A model generated the notes under the pieces. That model saw nothing but the letters and a program-made list of their open reading frames with translations, made no database searches and was not told where the DNA came from. From NCBI RefSeq assembly GCF_026242195.1, contig NZ_RKLV01000005.1:62001-126000 (forward strand): a DNA stretch of 64,000 nt. Reading direction: 5' to 3'. Below, one piece after another: positions 3,686 through 63,901 of the stretch. Made by a program: the position numbers and the translations under genes. This DNA is from Halorutilus salinus (GTDB lineage: Archaea > Halobacteriota > Halobacteria > Halobacteriales > Halorutilaceae). Each line of letters opens with the position of its first letter. Position 1 is the stretch's first letter.

Positions 3686-3766
3686 GTTCCGTCTCCGGGA
3701 TGAGCGCGGAAAAGCGTGGGGTTCGCCGGGCAGAAAGCATTTGTCGCGTGCTTCGTTATCGCCGAC

Positions 3767-4576
3767 ATGCCGACGCGCCGTTCGTTTCTCGCCGGCTCCG
3801 CTGGTGTTCTCACGGGCTGTCTCGGCGACGACGGCGACAACGAGACGAACGAGAGCGACGACGAAGGCGAAGCCGACTTCGCCGTAACCACCTCCAAGAA
3901 CACGGTCGAACCCCCGCGTGACACCGTTGAGGTCACTCTGACGAACGAAGGCGACGGTTACGGCGGCTACAACCCCTACTGGAGTATCTACAGACGTATC
4001 GGCGACGGGTGGCGTTTTGTAGCACCCGTCAAACGAACCCTCAGAGCACCCTTCCTATCCGCCGGTTCTGAGGAGACACGGACGTTCACGGTCGACAACA
4101 CCGACCACGAAGCCCGCGGACAGAACGAAGAAGGCGGCTGGACGTTCTGGGGACTCAACCCCGGACGTTACGCCGTCGAACCCGCCAACGGGATGTACGC
4201 CGAGTTCGATGTCGAGGGCGAACCGCCTGATTTCTCAGATACCACCGTCTCGTACGGCATCAGGAACGAGGACGCCCAAACCGTAATCTACGCCGAGGAG
4301 GAGCTACGCGATCCGGAACCGTCGATCCGCGTTACGCGAACAGACGCCGACGGCGTGAACCTCGTAGAGGAACAGCTAAACCAGCTTGGTGCCGTCCGCG
4401 ACGCCGTGCTACACGCCAACGGCGAGGCGGTCGTCTACACCGACGACGCGGCGACGGTATACGCCTACCTGCAACGGTACGCGTCCGAGCGCTCGTACGA
4501 GACCGAGGACGAAGAACCCGTCGTCTTCAGGTACGAAGGTGAAAGCTACCGTGTCGAGTGGCTTGACACGGATTAA
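3767..4576 (+). CDS. Tat-exported lipoprotein, paralogue of the 8.8-13.8 kb family
   Basis: The 269-residue protein begins with a twin-arginine signal (TRRSFL) and lipobox LTGC, followed by an acidic Asn/Asp/Glu-rich linker, so it should be anchored outside the membrane. An Ig-like beta domain (about residues 35-155) includes TFTVDNTD and WGLNPG-Y. A C-terminal module (about 200-269) has EEQLNQLG-VRDAV and ends in YEGESYRVEW. The same two-part design occurs in the proteins at 11191 and 13058. The ATG at 3767 is chosen because it begins directly at the signal peptide; the upstream extension has no meaningful sequence. Function unknown. Confidence 0.85.
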   Translation: MPTRRSFLAGSAGVLTGCLGDDGDNETNESDDEGEADFAVTTSKNTVEPPRDTVEVTLTNEGDGYGGYNPYWSIYRRIGDGWRFVAPVKRTLRAPFLSAGSEETRTFTVDNTDHEARGQNEEGGWTFWGLNPGRYAVEPANGMYAEFDVEGEPPDFSDTTVSYGIRNEDAQTVIYAEEELRDPEPSIRVTRTDADGVNLVEEQLNQLGAVRDAVLHANGEAVVYTDDAATVYAYLQRYASERSYETEDEEPVVFRYEGESYRVEWLDTD

Positions 4577-4837: not shown

Positions 4838-5254
4838 CTAGTCTCGCCAGACTGCGTACAGGCTGTCTTTCTCGTAGTAGTTTCCCATGTCTACGCTGAC
4901 GTTTCTCGGTTCTTCTTTCGATCTCCTCAAACCGTCCATGGTTATGTCCTGAACCTCTCCGAACGGTTCGAACGGTTCAATCCTGTTATCGTCCATCATA
5001 GCCCTCAGCGTCTTCATGCCGGTTCGGTGATTCACGTCCGGGAAGAAATGTACGCCGACTATCGCATGCATCCACAGCGCGGACTGTTCAACGAGAGGTT
5101 CGTCGGTCGGGAAACCGTCGATTATACGCTGGAGGTCGTGTCTGTCGCCCCTGTCGAGCTTCATCTTGCTACGGGTTTCGAGGTGGGTGTATGAGTGCAC
5201 GTCCTCGTACTCAGTATCGCTGTCTTCATTCCTTGACCTCTTGAACTCGTCCAT
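4838..5254 (-). CDS. Fic/Doc-family protein (putative toxin)
   Basis: The 138-residue protein contains HFFPDVNHRTG (residues 69-79), a good match to the Fic motif HxFx(D/E)GNxR that holds the catalytic His and the phosphate-binding loop. Fic enzymes transfer AMP or other phosphate-linked groups to proteins; Doc phosphorylates EF-Tu. The glycine of the motif is replaced by Val, so substrate and activity may differ. The N-terminal 30 residues are polar and lack Fic character. Its neighbour on the other strand is a small frameshifted ORF. A toxin role is inferred from the family only. Confidence 0.7.
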   Translation of the reverse strand: MDEFKRSRNEDSDTEYEDVHSYTHLETRSKMKLDRGDRHDLQRIIDGFPTDEPLVEQSALWMHAIVGVHFFPDVNHRTGMKTLRAMMDDNRIEPFEPFGEVQDITMDGLRRSKEEPRNVSVDMGNYYEKDSLYAVWRD

Positions 5255-6566: not shown

Positions 6567-7316
6567 TCACACAGCCTTGCGCCGAACCTTCGTTGCGCCC
6601 CGGCGGTACTTACTGAAGACCTCGTCTCCCTTATCACGTACCGGAACGCGGTCGGATACGACACCGCCCAGTACCCCTCCTTCGCCATCGTAGGATATCA
6701 CACAGACACCCGTGTCGGAGACGAGAAGACCGTACGGCACCGTACGTTCGGTGACGTAGACGGAAACGCCGTTCTCCAACTGATCCTCAAGCATCTTAGG
6801 GTACCGTCTCCGAACGTGCTCAAAGACATCCTTCTCCAAGACGAACTCCGCATCCATACCTTCGACAGCCTTCCGCCGAGCGAAACGGACGTACCTCTCG
6901 GTGACGACGGGCGCGAGTCCCCGAACCGTTTCCGACGCGTTAACCATATCCTCCATACGCGACACGGGCTTCTGGGGTGCGTGCGGTTCGGGTAGGACGG
7001 TATCGGCGTCCGAAACCATGTCGAGGTCGAAGTCGTCACCGAGTCCTTCGAGAACCGGACGCGCCTTGCACACACGTGACATCTCCTCGTGCTTTTGATA
7101 CACTTCCTTTCCGTACGCCGTCAGGTCGTAGCCTCCGCCCCCGTTAGTTATCAGACCCACGTCCTCCAGTTCACGTAGTGACTTGTACACCGTCGAGTCA
7201 GCCATCTCGGTCTCACGCCGCAGGTCGGACGCGTCGTATTCTCGCTCGTGTATACGTTTGAGAACGTCGGCGCGTTTGGACAGGACATCGTGCAGTTCGG
7301 CGGTACCGTGGGACAT
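6567..7316 (-). CDS. HTH transcription regulator with FilR1-type domain
   Basis: The 249-residue protein has an N-terminal winged helix-turn-helix (about 8-75; DASDLRRETEMADSTVYKSL gives the recognition helix). A C-terminal domain of the FilR1/DUF1724 type follows (about 95-240), with ENGVSVYVTE and P-Y-G-L-L-V-S-D. This architecture is common in archaeal regulators, and its ligand is generally unknown. A TATA element (ACTTAAGA on the minus strand, 7339-7346) lies 27 bases upstream of the ATG, indicating a leaderless message. It is divergent from the protease-lipoprotein operon and from a repeat array, so it is the first candidate to control them. Confidence 0.8.
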   Translation of the reverse strand: MSHGTAELHDVLSKRADVLKRIHEREYDASDLRRETEMADSTVYKSLRELEDVGLITNGGGGYDLTAYGKEVYQKHEEMSRVCKARPVLEGLGDDFDLDMVSDADTVLPEPHAPQKPVSRMEDMVNASETVRGLAPVVTERYVRFARRKAVEGMDAEFVLEKDVFEHVRRRYPKMLEDQLENGVSVYVTERTVPYGLLVSDTGVCVISYDGEGGVLGGVVSDRVPVRDKGDEVFSKYRRGATKVRRKAV

Positions 7317-7389
7317 ACGCGCGTATACCGTTCCGTATCTTAAGTCCTTTTTGCCGGGTACCGGACGGCTGACCTGACGTTACATGCTC

Positions 7390-7490
7390 CGTGTAACTTT
7401 CACGGTTCGTGTAATTTCTACGGTTCGTATAAATTTCACAGTCCGTACAAATTCCATGTTTCATGCAAATTTTGCGCCGTGTAATATAAG
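7390..7490. repeat. Array of about six 18-bp repeats (operator-like)
   Basis: The core CGTGTAA or a close variant recurs at 7390, 7408, 7426, 7444, 7462 and 7478. The period is exactly 18 bases for five copies and 16 for the last. Better copies are imperfect palindromes of the form CGTGTAA-N-TTTCACG with 3-base spacers. Copies decay towards the downstream side, and the last one merges into the TATA-like TAATATAA at 7482-7489. Because 18 is a multiple of three, the array reads as a spurious repetitive peptide in one frame. This is best read as multiple binding sites for a regulator. Confidence 0.7.
7482..7489 (+). promoter_or_regulatory. TATA element of the protease-lipoprotein operon
   Basis: TAATATAA is centred about 30 bases before the ATG at 7516, which suggests a leaderless transcript. 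It overlaps the sixth copy of the upstream repeat, so a protein bound there would compete with TBP. Confidence 0.55.
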
Positions 7491-7515
7491 TTGGCAGAGT
7501 GTTGTAGTAGCTGAT

Positions 7516-8820
7516 ATGGCACGAGACAAGACGCGCGACCTGCGTAAGATGGGGCGTAGAAACTTCTTGAAGACCCTTGCTGGAATCGGAGTCTCGGCTG
7601 GTTCGCTGAGATATCTTTCAAAAGAGGCACTTGCAGAAGTAACTGACAAACCGGAGGACGTGGTGCCAGTCCTACAGTTTATGAAGAAACCGGATAATGA
7701 GGAAGAACGAAGGAAAAACAAGGGCATTGAGGATTTCGCTGGTAGAATACCTGTATATGAAGCCGTTCCCCGCGACAGATGGATGAAAATAGAAGCTATA
7801 CATAACGCCGCTCGTAAATTGAATAACAGACTTTCGTCAATCAGCGAACCATCTCCCGAAGTTGGTGTGACAATGAGGACGAACGGGCATAACAAAGAGA
7901 GGATTCTGGAAGTTAAACATGTAACCTACACATGTGACTGCGGCGAGGGGGTTATACAAACTCCTGGGGTTAGCTATGATAGCCTGACCGATAAAATACC
8001 GGCGAGCGTCTCAGGTACACACGGGAAAGGGAATTATGAACGAGTAGTAGAGGACATACCTGTAGTGGTGAAGGAAGTTACTGCTGAGTTGCAGAACTAT
8101 TATACGAATAAATACAGACCTGTTCCCGGCGGTTGCAAAATGATAGGTTCTAAGATGGAAAGCAGTTACTGTGATGCCACCATCGGGTTCCCCGCGGAAC
8201 AAGGTTATAACCAGCCAGTCTGGGTTACTGCCGCTCATAACGTCTCCGTTGATATGCCAGAGTATACAACCTGTAAAGACGAGCAATTTTATGGTGATGA
8301 TGTATATCAACCAGATGAATCTAACAGTGGCATTATTGGAGGTGCTCAAGAGGATGATCTATGGTGGTTTGCAACAAACCACGGGCCAGATAAATGGGGA
8401 GACGTGGCAGTACTAAGAAATATCATGGGAAATGATGCGGAATTTGATATGGCGAGTGACTCTACCGGACAGGATTACATGGGATGGGAATTAAAAGGTA
8501 CTTCATCTGTGGATCGTCTCAAAGATAAGATGAGTTCTCTTGATATAACGGTACAAGGAATTACAACCGGTAGACAGACCGGCTCCATTTACGGCCTTGA
8601 CAATAACGATTATCAAATACAACTATCTGATGTAGATACGGAGGGTGGGGACTCTGGAGGACCGTACTTTGAACTGGAACCAGATGAGCTTGGCAACAAC
8701 GAAGTACTTGCCGTAGGTATACACTCCGGTAGTAATAGATACTCTCCGGCTGACACTTTCGGCAGTATATTTAAGCGGGTTGAAAATAACTTTGGTATAG
8801 CAGTCGGTGCCTCATGGTAG
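7516..8820 (+). CDS. Tat-exported trypsin-like serine protease
   Basis: The 434-residue protein has a Tat signal (GRRNFLKTLAGIGVSAG, residues 13-29). A long N-terminal part (40-215) contains Cys pairs such as CDC at 140-142. The C-terminal half is chymotrypsin-like: AAHN with His 241, GDVAV with Asp 296 and GGDSGGPY with Ser 380, a complete catalytic triad. It has no lipobox and should be released or held by partners. Codon use differs sharply from the flanks (many ATA, AGA, GAT, AAT; visibly lower GC), which points to recent transfer. The ATG at 7516 is chosen as the one directly before the signal; the upstream part is the repeat array. Its stop overlaps the next start. Confidence 0.85.
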   Translation: MARDKTRDLRKMGRRNFLKTLAGIGVSAGSLRYLSKEALAEVTDKPEDVVPVLQFMKKPDNEEERRKNKGIEDFAGRIPVYEAVPRDRWMKIEAIHNAARKLNNRLSSISEPSPEVGVTMRTNGHNKERILEVKHVTYTCDCGEGVIQTPGVSYDSLTDKIPASVSGTHGKGNYERVVEDIPVVVKEVTAELQNYYTNKYRPVPGGCKMIGSKMESSYCDATIGFPAEQGYNQPVWVTAAHNVSVDMPEYTTCKDEQFYGDDVYQPDESNSGIIGGAQEDDLWWFATNHGPDKWGDVAVLRNIMGNDAEFDMASDSTGQDYMGWELKGTSSVDRLKDKMSSLDITVQGITTGRQTGSIYGLDNNDYQIQLSDVDTEGGDSGGPYFELEPDELGNNEVLAVGIHSGSNRYSPADTFGSIFKRVENNFGIAVGASW

Positions 8821-10343
8821 AAAGGTGTAACAGACGGAAGTTTTCGGCACTGGTTCTTTTAGGCTTAACCGGATGTCTCGAAAATACAGGCGAGCACAAT
8901 GACGGAGAGGGTTTTAACCAAACAGGTACTGATGGAGAAATCAGAGTGAGTTCGTCCGTCGACAGTCTAACCCTTCCACAGGCGGAGTTTGAGCTACGGA
9001 TATCAAACCGGACGGACAACGAAATCTCGCTTGGCTTCCCGACAGCTTGGAAGGTGATTGACGGCGAATACTTCTATTTACAGCCCATAAGACCGGCACA
9101 CCTGTTTCCTCATCTCGGTGTCCGCCTCGGACCGAACGGCACGGAGTCATTCAACCTCACCGTTGGTAATGAGTCGGAGACCATGGAACCGTATCTTCCG
9201 GGAGCGGGACCGGGAAAATACCTGTTTAGTGTCACCGAGGGTGTTTACGAACCCGATGAGGTAATCGATGAAATGAAGACGACTGAACTCAGGTTCGTGG
9301 GTGACGCGCCGGATCACACCCCCGTCTCCGTCGAAGAGACGAGTAACGAGGACGGCATACTACGTCTCAGGATGCAGACTAACCGCGGGTCGGAAGATGA
9401 CACGGGTCGTGTTTCCATCTCTACCGGTGAAGACGTACGCCGTGAAGCACCCAACGACACACCGGAACTGATACGCGAGCAGGTCTTCCAGTTTGGTGTC
9501 GTCCGTAACGCTGTCTACTACCTTGGTGTTCAGGAAGAAACGCATGAACTGATAGCTGAAGGTAGCTTGGTTTCTCAAGAACGCCGCGTTCTCGACGAGG
9601 TACGCCGTGAAGACAGGTACCCGTACTTCTCGTCGAACGACGACAGTCTATACTTTGGCTACGACGGTGACATCTATCGTATTGAACTGTATTCGGAGGT
9701 TAACGCTACGGAAACCACAGTTTCACGGGGCGAGGTAAACGTCATAAACGAGGAGTTCCACGTTAGTTCGCCCCACGGACAAGGCTCCCCTGACCCCATC
9801 AGTATCGTGAACGACGGCGACGAAACGGTACGTTGCACGGTTGAGGTATTGGAGGACGGCGAACCGGTCTACACTCTCCGTATCGAACTGGGACCTTACG
9901 GTACCTACACAGACGGTCTGAGGATAGCGCGTGAAGGGGTATACGATGTCCGTGTAGAAACTGAGGGCGGCACGGTTGACGGTAGATGGCATGTAGGGGA
10001 TGGATATACGGGGTTCGTGGTAGAGCCGGACGAGCCGAGGGTTTCGCAGGTGAAGAGGCGGGGAACCGTAGAGGTACGGACGCCCGACACGGTTCCCAAA
10101 GGTGATCCGGTTCCCGCAGAGGATATCTCGGAGTACGGAGCCGTCTACGAGGCTATCGAACAGCACCACGGTTGTGAGACGGGTGACTCGGACGATGGGT
10201 GCGAAACCGTCCGTACGGTAGCCGGTGAGGACTGGGTGGTTGCGACACGTGCCTCTGAGGAGTATACGAGCGAAGATGGGTCAGGGGTATACGTCGAATA
10301 CCGTGGGAATGTTTACGTCTTCACAGTCGAAACAGAGGTGTGA
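8814..10343 (+). CDS. Two-module Tat lipoprotein in protease operon
   Basis: The 509-residue protein starts with NRRKF and lipobox LTGC (Cys 21), so it is exported and lipid-anchored. The N-terminal half resembles the family at 3767/11191/13058: an Ig-like part with WKV, FNLTVGN and GPGKY, then IREQVFQFGVVRNAV and YDGDIYRIEL. The C-terminal half (from about residue 305) resembles the whole mature protein at 10351 (VINEEFHV, EDISEYGAVYEAIE, VEYRGNVYVF). It is therefore a fusion of two related units. Its ATG lies inside the protease stop region (7-base overlap), which implies translational coupling. GC content is intermediate between the protease and later genes. Function unknown. Confidence 0.8.
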   Translation: MVERCNRRKFSALVLLGLTGCLENTGEHNDGEGFNQTGTDGEIRVSSSVDSLTLPQAEFELRISNRTDNEISLGFPTAWKVIDGEYFYLQPIRPAHLFPHLGVRLGPNGTESFNLTVGNESETMEPYLPGAGPGKYLFSVTEGVYEPDEVIDEMKTTELRFVGDAPDHTPVSVEETSNEDGILRLRMQTNRGSEDDTGRVSISTGEDVRREAPNDTPELIREQVFQFGVVRNAVYYLGVQEETHELIAEGSLVSQERRVLDEVRREDRYPYFSSNDDSLYFGYDGDIYRIELYSEVNATETTVSRGEVNVINEEFHVSSPHGQGSPDPISIVNDGDETVRCTVEVLEDGEPVYTLRIELGPYGTYTDGLRIAREGVYDVRVETEGGTVDGRWHVGDGYTGFVVEPDEPRVSQVKRRGTVEVRTPDTVPKGDPVPAEDISEYGAVYEAIEQHHGCETGDSDDGCETVRTVAGEDWVVATRASEEYTSEDGSGVYVEYRGNVYVFTVETEV

Positions 10344-10350
10344 ATTTATC

Positions 10351-11187
10351 ATGAACCGCCGAGGTTTTGTTGCTACGGTTGCGGTGGTTATGTCAGGATG
10401 TGTTAGTAACGGAAGCAACACCACGCCCGGTGACGACGAAACCGACATCAACCAAACCGATACAGGAAACCGAACCGACACCCCTCTCAACAAGTCGGAG
10501 TACGGTGGCGAGGTAGCGGAAGGAACACGTGTTCTTAATGAGGAAATAAACGTCGACACTCCTTACGGAAATGACTACCCCCCAGAGGCAGTTCGAATTA
10601 TTAGCACGGCAGAAGAGGAGGTGACGGCGACGGTCAGGCTACTGGAGGGAGAAGACGTCATATACTCCGCAACCCTTGTTCAAGAACCCTCTACAGGAGG
10701 GTACAGGTATCCGGAGCTTATCGGCAAAACAGGAGGGTTAGTAGCCGAAGTAGAGAGGAACGGCGAGGTACAAGAACTCGAATGTAAGACGGGACCCGGA
10801 TTTACCATCATCGCTATTGATGTCGACGATGTGGACGGATGCACGGCACCCAGACATGCGAACATAGCCATCTATCACGTCACGGAGAAACCCGACGATG
10901 TCGAACTCGTCTCCTCCGAGGAGCTGTCTGAGTATGACACCGTCGATTCATTCGTTGAGTCGTACAGGTACTGCGACGACAACCCCGATGAGAAGGAGGC
11001 ATGCGTGACCGAGGACGGCGAAGTTGACTTCTTCCGCGGCGGCGTTTCGGGAAGACGGTACGCCGAGTTTGACCGTATAATCGAAAAGTTTCCTAGCTAC
11101 AGGTCGGATGACGACGAGTACCCAACGGGGGCGTACATTGAACACGAAGGTGAGATTTACGTCTTCCACATGACCATGGAGTTTTGA
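10351..11187 (+). CDS. Lipoprotein related to C-terminal half of the preceding gene
   Basis: The 278-residue protein has a signal with NRRGF and lipobox MSGC, then a Thr/Asn/Asp-rich linker. A beta domain follows (RVLNEEINVDTP, TVRLLEGEDVIYSATL) and then a C-terminal module with ELSEYDTVDSFVES and IEHEGEIYVF. The last two segments match the second half of the 8814 protein closely enough to call them paralogues. Four Cys residues in the mature part (near CKTGPGF, GCTAPR, YRYCDDN and EACVTED) may form disulfides. The ATG at 10351 begins directly at the signal and is 7 bases after the previous stop. Function unknown. Confidence 0.78.
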   Translation: MNRRGFVATVAVVMSGCVSNGSNTTPGDDETDINQTDTGNRTDTPLNKSEYGGEVAEGTRVLNEEINVDTPYGNDYPPEAVRIISTAEEEVTATVRLLEGEDVIYSATLVQEPSTGGYRYPELIGKTGGLVAEVERNGEVQELECKTGPGFTIIAIDVDDVDGCTAPRHANIAIYHVTEKPDDVELVSSEELSEYDTVDSFVESYRYCDDNPDEKEACVTEDGEVDFFRGGVSGRRYAEFDRIIEKFPSYRSDDDEYPTGAYIEHEGEIYVFHMTMEF

Positions 11188-11190
11188 GAT

Positions 11191-11988
11191 ATGCGGACGC
11201 GCCGTTCGTTCCTCGCCGTCTCCGCCGCCTCTCTCACGGGCTGTCTCGGCGGCGACGGCGGTAAGGAGACGAACGAGAGCGACGAAGACGAACCCGAGTA
11301 CGCGGTGACCACATCCAAGAACACGCTTGAACCCCCGCGCGACAGCCTTGAAGTCGTGGTCGAAAACAGGGAGGAGTCGGAAATCACGATCCCTCCATCT
11401 ATTGAGGTCTACAAAGACACAGACGAGGGGAAGTACCTGGTCACGCCTTACATAGGACGGATCGAAAAGTTCCAAGAAAGACTGGGCGGTCCCGTATTGG
11501 AGCCGAACGGCGAACATAGCTGGACATTCGTGGTCGACAACACCGACCCCGACTCGCGGGGTCGAGAGCGGTACAAGCACACCCTTTGGGGTCTAAACCC
11601 CGGAACGTACACGGCGAAGGTGGGGTACGGCGTCTCGGAGTTCAAAATCGAAGGCGACCCGGTTGACCGGGACAAGATATCCTACGAGATTAAGCAGGAA
11701 GATGGGGTTACGGAGGTCTACTACGAGGAACACAGCCTCGAAGACGAGGTACCGGCTGTACGTCTCACACCGACGGACGAAGAGGGTCGTACGGTGATAG
11801 AAGAACAGCTAAACCAGCTTGGTGGGCTACGCGACGCGGTTCTGTACGCCGACGGGGGTGAGGCTGTCGTATACACCGACGAAGAGTCCTTGGTCGGACA
11901 GCTCAGGGTTCTTACCGACATATACCCTACCGAGGGGGCTGTGATAGAGTACGAAAACGAAACGTACCGTGCCCGGTATGTCGAATAG
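11191..11988 (+). CDS. Tat lipoprotein, Ig-like plus C-terminal module
   Basis: The 265-residue protein opens with RTRRSFL and lipobox LTGC. The mature part has an acidic linker, YAVTTSKNTLEPPRDSLEVVVEN, then TFVVDNTD and LWGLNPGTY of the Ig-like domain. The C-terminal module has EEQLNQLGGLRDAV and ends in YENETYRARY. It is a clear paralogue of the proteins at 3767 and 13058. It starts 3 bases after the previous stop and ends directly before the next start, so it sits in the middle of the operon. Function unknown. Confidence 0.82.
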   Translation: MRTRRSFLAVSAASLTGCLGGDGGKETNESDEDEPEYAVTTSKNTLEPPRDSLEVVVENREESEITIPPSIEVYKDTDEGKYLVTPYIGRIEKFQERLGGPVLEPNGEHSWTFVVDNTDPDSRGRERYKHTLWGLNPGTYTAKVGYGVSEFKIEGDPVDRDKISYEIKQEDGVTEVYYEEHSLEDEVPAVRLTPTDEEGRTVIEEQLNQLGGLRDAVLYADGGEAVVYTDEESLVGQLRVLTDIYPTEGAVIEYENETYRARYVE

Positions 11989-13068
11989 ATGGATACAAGC
12001 TATCCGTTCCTCGCGTCCGTCTCGCGTCTGACCGTAGCCGTTGTCTTCGTCTACCTCGCTACCTTAGGAGTCGTCGCACAGCCCGTGAACGTCTCCGACA
12101 CGGGCGATCTGCGTAACGTCTCCGACGATCTTGACGGTAGCTACGTTCTCGTGGAAGACATCGACCTCTCAGACGTATCCTTCGAACCTATCGGGGACGC
12201 AGACAGGAGCTTCATAGGACGGTTCGACGGAAACGGACACGTCGTGACCAACCTTTCCGTCTCAGAGGAGGGATACGCGGGTCTGTTCGGTGCCGTCGGA
12301 GAGAACGGAACCGTCGAGAACGTGGGTGTTGAGAACGCGAACGTCTCCGGCACGGGGGCGGGCGGTCTCGTGGGATTCAACGCCGGGACGGTCGTTCGGT
12401 CGTACGTCACGGGGAACGTCACGGGTGACGAACCCGTCGGTGGGCTGGTCGGCGTCCACCGGGGCGTCGTCGCGCGGTCGTACTCGACCGCCGACGTGAC
12501 CGGAAACCGCACCGTCGGCGGCTTGGTTGGTATGGCGCACGCCGAACCGACGGGTATAGTACCGGGGACGCGTCCCGATATCGAGTACGCCGTCGTTGAG
12601 TCGTACGCCGCCGGCTATGTGGATGGCGACAAACGCGTCGGAGGCGTCTTCGGACTCGTGAGCCTCGCGCCCACGGATCCGCGCTCCGTCAACGACTCGG
12701 TGTACTGGGATGTCGAAGCCACGGGACACGAAGACGCCGTCGGTGCCTTCGGTACTCGGTCGAACGCGACGCCTGCGACGGGTCTTACCACGTCGGAGAT
12801 GACGGGCGTTGCCGCACGCGAGAGTATGTCAGGATTCGGTTTCGGCGATACGTGGGTGGTAAACGACGGATACCCCGAACTCGCCCGACGCGACCAACCG
12901 TCGTCCGTCACGATAGACCGACCCGAACGCGTACCCCAAGACGCCGAAGAAGACGGTAACGTCTCCGACGACGGAGACGACGAAGCCGAGGAGACGCCCG
13001 GCTTTACGTTCGTCGTGACTCTTGTAGCCTTCGCCGCGGTCGCGTGGGGGTGGTCGTATGAGACGTAG
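11989..13068 (+). CDS. GLUG-repeat surface protein with PGF-CTERM-like tail
   Basis: The 359-residue protein has a Sec-type signal peptide (1-31) and about four repeats of the GLUG type (GGLVG with following V-x-x-S-Y-x-x-x-x-V-T-G). These fold as right-handed beta-solenoid turns and occur in surface and adhesin-like proteins. Near the end an Asp/Glu-rich stretch is followed by TPGF and a hydrophobic segment, like a PGF-CTERM signal for archaeosortase. The usual terminal Arg cluster is missing. It overlaps the next gene by 11 bases. It should be displayed at the cell surface with the operon's lipoproteins. Confidence 0.78.
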   Translation: MDTSYPFLASVSRLTVAVVFVYLATLGVVAQPVNVSDTGDLRNVSDDLDGSYVLVEDIDLSDVSFEPIGDADRSFIGRFDGNGHVVTNLSVSEEGYAGLFGAVGENGTVENVGVENANVSGTGAGGLVGFNAGTVVRSYVTGNVTGDEPVGGLVGVHRGVVARSYSTADVTGNRTVGGLVGMAHAEPTGIVPGTRPDIEYAVVESYAAGYVDGDKRVGGVFGLVSLAPTDPRSVNDSVYWDVEATGHEDAVGAFGTRSNATPATGLTTSEMTGVAARESMSGFGFGDTWVVNDGYPELARRDQPSSVTIDRPERVPQDAEEDGNVSDDGDDEAEETPGFTFVVTLVAFAAVAWGWSYET

Positions 13069-13846
13069 GGTATTCCTCGTCTCGTCCGCCGGCGCGCTCA
13101 CGGGATGTCTCGGCGGTTCAGGCGAAAACGAGACGAACGGGACGAACACGACCGACGAAGACGAACCCCGGTACGCTGTAACCATATCCAAGGAGAGGCT
13201 CGAACTGCCGCGTGACAGCCTCGAGGTCACGACGGAGAACACGGGCGACGGTGGCGGCGGCTTCGGACCCCATCTACGTACGTACAAGATAGTCGACGGG
13301 GAGAGGTATATCATAGCACCTCGTACCAGTACCCTTGACGCCGTCCTTCTGGAACCCGGCGACGAGTTCTCGCTGAGCTTCACCGTCGACAACACAGACC
13401 GCGAACACGGCTACGCGGGACGCGGCGACCAGACCCTCTGGGGACTCAACCCCGGAACGTACGTCACTGAACTCGGTGATACCGCCGAGTTCGAAATCAT
13501 CGGCGAACCGTTCGACGCAGGTACGGTATCGCACGAAGTGAGGAGAGAAGACGGTGTCCTCAACGTCTACGCGGATATGGAGAGCCTTGACGACAACCAA
13601 CCCGCCGTCCGTCTAACGCCGACCGACGCCGACGGTCACAGACTCATCGAGGAACAAATAAACCAGTTCGACGCTCTGAGGGATGCTGTTATACACGCAG
13701 AAGGGAACGCGGCTAATATCTACACCGACCACCCACCGAGTAGCCGTCTGCGGTTCTACACGGGGAAGGATCTCGACGACGGTCCCGTCATTATCGAGTA
13801 CGACGACGAAAGCTACCGCGTCGAGATAGCCGACGACACCCCGTAA
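13058..13846 (+). CDS. Tat lipoprotein, last gene of the protease operon
   Basis: The 262-residue protein has RRRVFL and lipobox LTGC, then YAVTISKERLELPRDSLEVTTEN, SFTVDNTD and LWGLNPGTY of the Ig-like domain. The C-terminal module has EEQINQFDALRDAV and ends in YDDESYRVEI. It is a paralogue of the 3767 and 11191 proteins. It overlaps the GLUG gene by 11 bases, so it is almost certainly cotranslated with it. Base composition matches the rest of the chromosome, unlike the protease at the head of the operon. Function unknown. Confidence 0.82.
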   Translation: MRRRVFLVSSAGALTGCLGGSGENETNGTNTTDEDEPRYAVTISKERLELPRDSLEVTTENTGDGGGGFGPHLRTYKIVDGERYIIAPRTSTLDAVLLEPGDEFSLSFTVDNTDREHGYAGRGDQTLWGLNPGTYVTELGDTAEFEIIGEPFDAGTVSHEVRREDGVLNVYADMESLDDNQPAVRLTPTDADGHRLIEEQINQFDALRDAVIHAEGNAANIYTDHPPSSRLRFYTGKDLDDGPVIIEYDDESYRVEIADDTP

Positions 13847-63238: not shown

Positions 63239-63901
63239 CTATACACCGGTACGCGGGTCGTTCTCCTCAGGTATCTCCGCGCCCGCAAGGCTTTCGGCGC
63301 TTGCTAAGTTCTCCTTCTCCGTCTCGACGCCCGAAAGATCCGCGCCGTCCAAGGTAGCACCCCTGAGGTTTGCTACGAGGACGGCGTCGGTCAGGTCGAC
63401 GTCGGAGAGATCCGCGCCGGACAGGTCTGCGGCGTACAGGTTCGCTCCCGAAACGTCGGCGCGCCGTAGATCCGCCTCCGAGAGGTTCGCGCCGTACAGA
63501 ACGGCGTCGTTGAGCGACGCGTTCCTGAGGTCAGCCCCCGAAACGTCGGCGTATCTTAACGTTGCCTCCGACAGATCGGCGTCTGTGAGACACGCACCGG
63601 ACATGTCTGCGACATACCCTTCGTCCTCGGCTGTCATATCCGCGCCCGAAAGGTTCGCGCCGGTCAGGTCTGCGTCGGCGAACCTCGCAGACGCCTCCGA
63701 ACCGGACAGGTCGGCGTTGTAAAGCTCCGCCTCTGTGAACTCAGCGCCTCTAAGATCTGCGTGGCTAAGATCGGCGCGCCGGAGGTTAGCCCTCTTCAGG
63801 TTAGCCTCGGACAGGTCAGCGCCGCTCAGGCTCTCGCCCGCGAGGTCGGCGTCGACCATCACCTCACCGTTCAGATTCCTGTCGTTTTTTTCTTCATCCA
63901 T
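63239..63901 (-). CDS. Pentapeptide-repeat protein
   Basis: The 220-residue protein is almost entirely A-(D/N)-L-x-x repeats from about residue 15 to 207 (SGADLSEANLKRANLRRADLSHADL and so on), roughly 38 units. This folds as a four-sided right-handed beta-helix. A short insert (TAEDEGYVADMSGACL, about 94-109) breaks the regular pattern. There is no signal peptide. Some family members mimic DNA and protect gyrase (Qnr); for most the role is unknown. The protein is acidic. Confidence 0.9.
   Translation of the reverse strand: MDEEKNDRNLNGEVMVDADLAGESLSGADLSEANLKRANLRRADLSHADLRGAEFTEAELYNADLSGSEASARFADADLTGANLSGADMTAEDEGYVADMSGACLTDADLSEATLRYADVSGADLRNASLNDAVLYGANLSEADLRRADVSGANLYAADLSGADLSDVDLTDAVLVANLRGATLDGADLSGVETEKENLASAESLAGAEIPEENDPRTGV

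Follow-up and report, generated by a model that had tools for sequence, protein, structure and literature searches.

The 64,000-nucleotide stretch of Halorutilus salinus DNA analyzed here (the window) contains an array of 18-bp repeats between a divergently oriented regulator gene and a protease-lipoprotein operon starting at ATG 7516. This raises the question of whether the array is an operator and, if so, which protein reads it and to what effect. On the basis of the analyses described below, we consider that the array is probably an operator of several sites, read by the regulator encoded divergently at 6567-7316 and used to switch the protease-lipoprotein operon.

Genetic organization of the locus

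The features of the locus are collected in Table 1. TATA-like elements lie approximately 21-32 bp ahead of both start codons, which suggests that the transcripts of the regulator and of the protease operon are leaderless. The Tat signal of the protease was called from its twin-arginine N-terminus, with the Pfam TAT_signal match falling below cut-off; this N-terminus is conserved among the paralogues. The H. salinus genome has a size of 2.1 Mb and a G+C content of 59.8% (PMC10134839), and the window has one of 60.3%. The protease genes are A+T-rich, with 46-50% G+C at 7000-8999 versus 60% in the whole window, a dip that resembles a recently acquired or fast-evolving island.

Table 1. Features of the regulator-protease locus in window coordinates.
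Feature	Position	Strand	Basis
Divergent regulator, 249 aa, HVO_A0261_N winged helix and FilR1_middle	6567-7316	-	Pfam above cut-off; AlphaFold model
TATA-like element of regulator gene (TTAAGATA, minus strand), ~21-28 bp before ATG	7337-7344	-	Sequence; inferred
Distal inverted half-site TTACATG	7380-7386	.	Sequence and start of lag-18 signal
Array unit 1, CGTGTAACTTTCACGGTT	7390-7407	+	18-bp register, lag analysis
Array unit 2, CGTGTAATTTCTACGGTT	7408-7425	+	18-bp register, lag analysis
Array unit 3, CGTATAAATTTCACAGTC	7426-7443	+	18-bp register, lag analysis
Array unit 4, CGTACAAATTCCATGTTT	7444-7461	+	18-bp register, lag analysis
Array unit 5, CATGCAAATTTTGCGCCG, weak palindrome	7462-7479	+	18-bp register, lag analysis
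Sixth core CGTGTAA, 2 bp out of phase, BRE overlapped	7478-7484	+	Sequence
TATA box ATATAAG of protease operon, cf. GGATATAAG in paralogous promoters	7484-7490	+	Sequence, paralogue comparison
Tat-signal trypsin-like (S1) protease, 434 aa	7516-8820	+	Pfam Trypsin 8e-5, above cut-off
Lipoprotein-like gene, GCL lipobox, downstream in protease operon	8814-10343	+	ORF and sequence comparison
Second lipoprotein-like gene, akin to C-terminal part of 8814-10343 product	10342-11187	+	ORF and sequence comparison

Several other genes of the window were noted. Three related lipoprotein-like genes with weak Big_14 matches are 45-48% identical to each other; one is located upstream of the regulator (3716-4576) and two downstream, in the neighborhood of the protease operon (11191-11988, 13058-13846). 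The same neighborhood includes a gene for a repeat-rich secreted-like protein of 359 aa (11989-13068), which matches many repeats near the end of contig C10 of the same genome (L118 6776-10108) as well as a stretch beside a protease remnant on contig C15 (L092 4373-4861). A short ORF at 4838-5254 has a sub-threshold match to Fic/DOC, and a 15-bp periodic repeat at 63377-63465 looks coding for a pentapeptide-repeat protein.

Architecture of the array

The periodicity of the array is strong. Identity at a lag of 18 across 7390-7479 is 0.67, and is 0.65 at a lag of 36, whereas 2000 dinucleotide-preserving shuffles, scored at all lags between 9 and 30, gave no value higher than 0.52. This bears out the view of the initial annotation that the array is not random AT-rich DNA. 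The lag-18 signal begins at 7380, and the array is both the strongest 72-bp tandem signal within the window and the highest-scoring repeat reported by Tandem Repeats Finder. In approximately 570 kb of haloarchaeal DNA scanned, it was the sole AT-rich (38% G+C) tandem repeat at such a level, the others being G+C-rich repeats or masked N.

The initial annotation counted six cores with an 18-base period, the better copies being imperfect palindromes. Five units are exactly in register; the sixth core lies 16 bp from the fifth, overlaps the BRE and touches the TATA box, and may for these reasons be a coincidence. Half-sites within the array alternate in direction, giving a dyad axis every 9 bp. 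By eye, the number of matched palindrome pairs is six of seven in unit 1, five in unit 2, four in both unit 3 and unit 4, and three in unit 5, such that good palindromes are limited to units 1 and 2 and quality drops toward the TATA box. Unit-averaged reverse-complement symmetry nevertheless exceeds that of column-permuted units (p = 0.008). The dyad symmetry is thus genuine but modest. Although the units have diverged from one another, their C, T, AA and TT positions are invariant.

The adjacent regulator

The divergent gene does encode a FilR1-type regulator, as initially annotated, with both HVO_A0261_N (50.5 bits; gathering score 35) and FilR1_middle (90.3 bits; gathering score 27) above threshold. 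Its match to Pfam TrmB (19.1 bits) is below the gathering score of 25.6, and we therefore describe the protein as having a TrmB fold rather than as a TrmB. An AlphaFold model, built on only three sequences (pLDDT 75.6), predicts a winged helix, a long helix (residues 67-95) and an alpha/beta domain. With this model, Foldseek ranks TrmBL2 first (E 1.9e-9) and VIA-align ranks the TrmB effector domain first (2f5t; Z 15.0, rmsd 2.4 over 131 residues), followed by phospholipase-D-like domains. The 2f5t match covers residues 103-247. TrmBL2 matches the model over its full length with a large rmsd, so that this likeness is one of domain order only. The regulator is therefore TrmB-like in its predicted fold. 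A sequence search found no solved structures, and the literature searched contained no mention of HVO_A0261.

Distribution of the array and of the regulator-protease pair

The exact array is confined to its own genome, which gave the single match among 391 genomes of the class. The same repeat, which the initial annotation had proposed to look for in front of orthologues, is absent there, and the genomes searched yielded no true orthologue of the window module that carries this array. The half-site pair of the array has approximately 100 matches in the genome at up to three mismatches, the close ones being in the array only; reversed-pattern controls gave 8 and 6 matches, though their composition is perhaps not comparable. 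Neither a relative of the protease nor a copy of the array was found in viral contigs, and a degenerate-pattern search of the genome contigs retrieved zero relatives of the regulator. Alignment searches with the protease retrieved matches in Ods02 and Ods04, as well as distant proteases from haloarchaea. Protease homologues elsewhere in the class have no linked regulator within the flanks examined and, with one weak exception, no upstream inverted repeats. Likewise, HVO_A0261/FilR1 regulators outside this archaeal family showed neither consistent inverted repeats nor a linked protease.

Within the family, for which four genomes were compared (G000 to G003, the window belonging to G000), paralogous HVO_A0261/FilR1 regulators adjoin secreted-protease operons at five further loci. 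These are operons for Tat-secreted proteases of S1-like, M12-like or subtilase type. The regulator is followed by an S1 protease at G001:C118, and by two S1 proteases and lipoproteins at G003:C33. At G000:C10, it precedes a Tat protein, an M12-like metalloprotease, which carries HELVHLYGAQH and scores below the Pfam cut-off, and a lipoprotein. At G003:C21, a divergently oriented operon next to the regulator encodes a Tat-secreted subtilase (Pfam S8, 5e-11) together with two lipoproteins. The fifth locus, G000:C15, has a frameshifted regulator and an S1 protease remnant. No protease relative is present in G002.

The C15 pair seems to be decaying (L092 4999-5857): the frameshift is near the winged helix and the protease is reduced to approximately 63 aa, while the operator is well kept. 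Adjoining this locus are CCCACGACTTTAGTCGTGGG-type hairpins (L007 1-300) that are similar to insertion-sequence ends and have no Rfam match.

Half-sites in paralogous promoters

All of the paralogous promoters contain alternating inverted half-sites (F-R-F) directly upstream of the TATA box. Relative to the ATG, the F, R and F half-sites are positioned at about -75 to -80, -62 to -66 and -46 to -50, with the TATA box at -28 to -32. One dyad axis falls at approximately -52 to -54.5 and another at approximately -66.5 to -69.5; the second C21 axis and the C33a axis are weak and were placed from half-site positions. There is an extra axis at -98 in the G000/G001 loci and another at -84 in C10. Same-strand half-sites are 29-31 bp apart. 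These positions are near constant between promoters and the sequences differ, forming three classes: CG[GC]CAAA (C10, C15, G001), TATTATG (C33) and TTCTCA (C21). With half-sites of unspecified 6-nt sequence, F-R-F triplets of this spacing occur in five of six such promoters versus eight times in 460 kb of background, a contrast that should not be read as a formal probability given that the spacing window was picked after viewing the promoters and that C10, C15 and G001 share ancestry.

Two comparisons suggest that these sites are maintained. When G001 is compared with G000:C15, the operator has 87% identity, compared with 75% for the regulator gene and 50% for the spacer from TATA to ATG. In C10, relative to C15/G001, one and the same position is altered in all three half-sites (CGGCAAA to CGCCAAA), and we regard this concerted change as the strongest evidence that they are recognized as equivalent half-sites. 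The operator type shared by C15 and C10 occurs at those two loci only in its genome. In addition, the residue following STV in the recognition helix varies in parallel with operator class, being Tyr in the window and C33 regulators, Arg in C10 and G001, and His in C21. It corresponds to the region of Tyr50 in TrmB, where Tyr50 and Asp51 are DNA-binding residues (PMC4158304).

The window array falls outside this F-R-F class: its same-strand spacing is 18 bp, it contains no such triplet and its half-site sequence differs from those of all paralogous operators. As neither spacing nor sequence is shared, it is from neighborhood and analogy that we infer the array to belong to the neighboring regulator. 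The initial proposal of a FilR1-type operator is partly supported, by the recurrence of regulator-protease pairs with half-sites at five loci and not by a common sequence. What is conserved across the family is the arrangement, with the operator sequence differing.

Proposed function and alternative explanations

In the proposed mechanism, the regulator would bind several sites along 7380-7484, a region of approximately 100 bp ending at the BRE/TATA, and would act on the protease-lipoprotein promoter from directly upstream of these elements. Occupancy may be cooperative or filament-like, as the array and the resemblance to TrmBL2 suggest. An effector would presumably act through the C-terminal domain of the regulator. 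More generally, each regulator of this kind in the family would have a private operator at the neighboring secreted-protease operon, the half-site sequences having been rewired between paralogues.

The sign of the control is less certain. In TrmB-like regulators, sites upstream of the BRE/TATA are associated with activation and downstream sites with repression (PMC4158304). Since the paralogous sites also end before the TATA box, activation, possibly by contact with TFB/TBP from upstream, appears somewhat likelier by analogy than repression. There is still a real possibility that the same operator works with the opposite sign, the regulator repressing the protease operon, and perhaps its own gene, until released by an effector. 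The last core (7478-7484) would be well placed for this at the BRE and TATA box, and a long array beside the promoter of the regulator itself fits cooperative silencing. There are also precedents in TrmBL2, a relative in fold that coats DNA and represses promoters (PMC4158304), and in the sptA halolysin promoter, where a BRE-covering semi-palindrome is a negative element (PMC6085418). The activation-linked position of the paralogous half-sites, upstream of BRE/TATA, weighs against repression.

Other explanations dispense with the neighboring regulator or with function altogether. It is unlikely that the array is an operator serving a different regulator, or a nucleoid protein, whose gene lies elsewhere, with the neighbor as a bystander. 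The half-site and spacing unlike those of the paralogous operators would fit this, as would the use of several sites in growth-phase control of a haloarchaeal protease (PMC6085418), but the regulator-protease pairing recurs at five more loci with operator-like sites in between, and the confinement of close copies of the half-site pair to this one place in the genome argues against a global regulator. Less plausible again is a neutral origin by tandem duplication within AT-rich promoter DNA, the repeats having no function. The two most similar units are adjacent (1 and 2), 14 of the 19 differences from the array consensus are transitions, and the array is absent from every other genome searched. 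Such an origin does not sit well, however, with the dyad symmetry and the invariant positions across diverged units, with placement directly upstream of the TATA box, or with the analogous conserved sites in paralogous promoters. We regard a coding role for the repeats, as a repetitive peptide at the N-terminus, as very improbable: the 18-bp period is divisible by three and one reading frame is open through the array from ATG 7384 into the protease (ORF 7384-8820), but the protease start at 7516 and its Tat signal align with the paralogue starts, the upstream frames of the paralogues contain stops, and the TATA box would fall inside the supposed coding part. Given the conservation of ATG 7516 in the paralogues, the array is taken as non-coding.

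If the array is indeed the operator of the neighboring regulator, a broader and rather speculative scenario can be drawn. TrmB-fold regulators of this haloarchaeal lineage might have been copied together with various secreted-protease operons, half-sites being rewired and geometry kept, with the window copy polymerizing on its 18-bp array. Polymerization of this kind, like that of TrmBL2 on bulk DNA, would give a sharp switch.

Comparison with known systems

The system resembles the TrmB family (TrmB, TrmBL1/Tgr, TrmBL2), with which it shares an N-terminal winged helix, a similar C-terminal fold, a local target operon and inverted-repeat sites at the BRE/TATA (PMC4158304). It differs in that the TrmB sites described in that review are single palindromes rather than an array, and that the targets are secreted proteases rather than sugar genes. 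FilR1 of Methanosaeta harundinacea has the FilR1_middle domain in common with the window protein but is part of a two-component system regulating methanogenesis genes (PMC3991700); that report contains none of the words palindrome, inverted repeat or motif. CsmR of Haloferax volcanii, inferred to be a positive regulator, has a semi-palindrome (TATCA-N4-TGATA) upstream of BRE/TATA (PMC13286277), although there is just one, of other sequence, and its targets are motility genes.

Among haloarchaeal secreted-protease promoters, we found one that has been studied in detail, that of the sptA halolysin of Natrinema sp. J7-2. It also drives a Tat-secreted protease and has semi-palindromes upstream of the TATA box, which overlap and exert positive or negative control; a distal enhancer made of direct repeats is also present (PMC6085418). 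It has three semi-palindromes compared with the five-unit array here, and its regulatory proteins are yet to be determined according to its authors (PMC6085418), whereas the window has a candidate next door. In the family studied here, protease regulators are probably encoded adjacent to their targets together with candidate operators. With a recognition-helix residue that varies with half-site sequence, these paralogous regulator-operator pairs provide a natural experiment on how the DNA specificity of an archaeal regulator changes.
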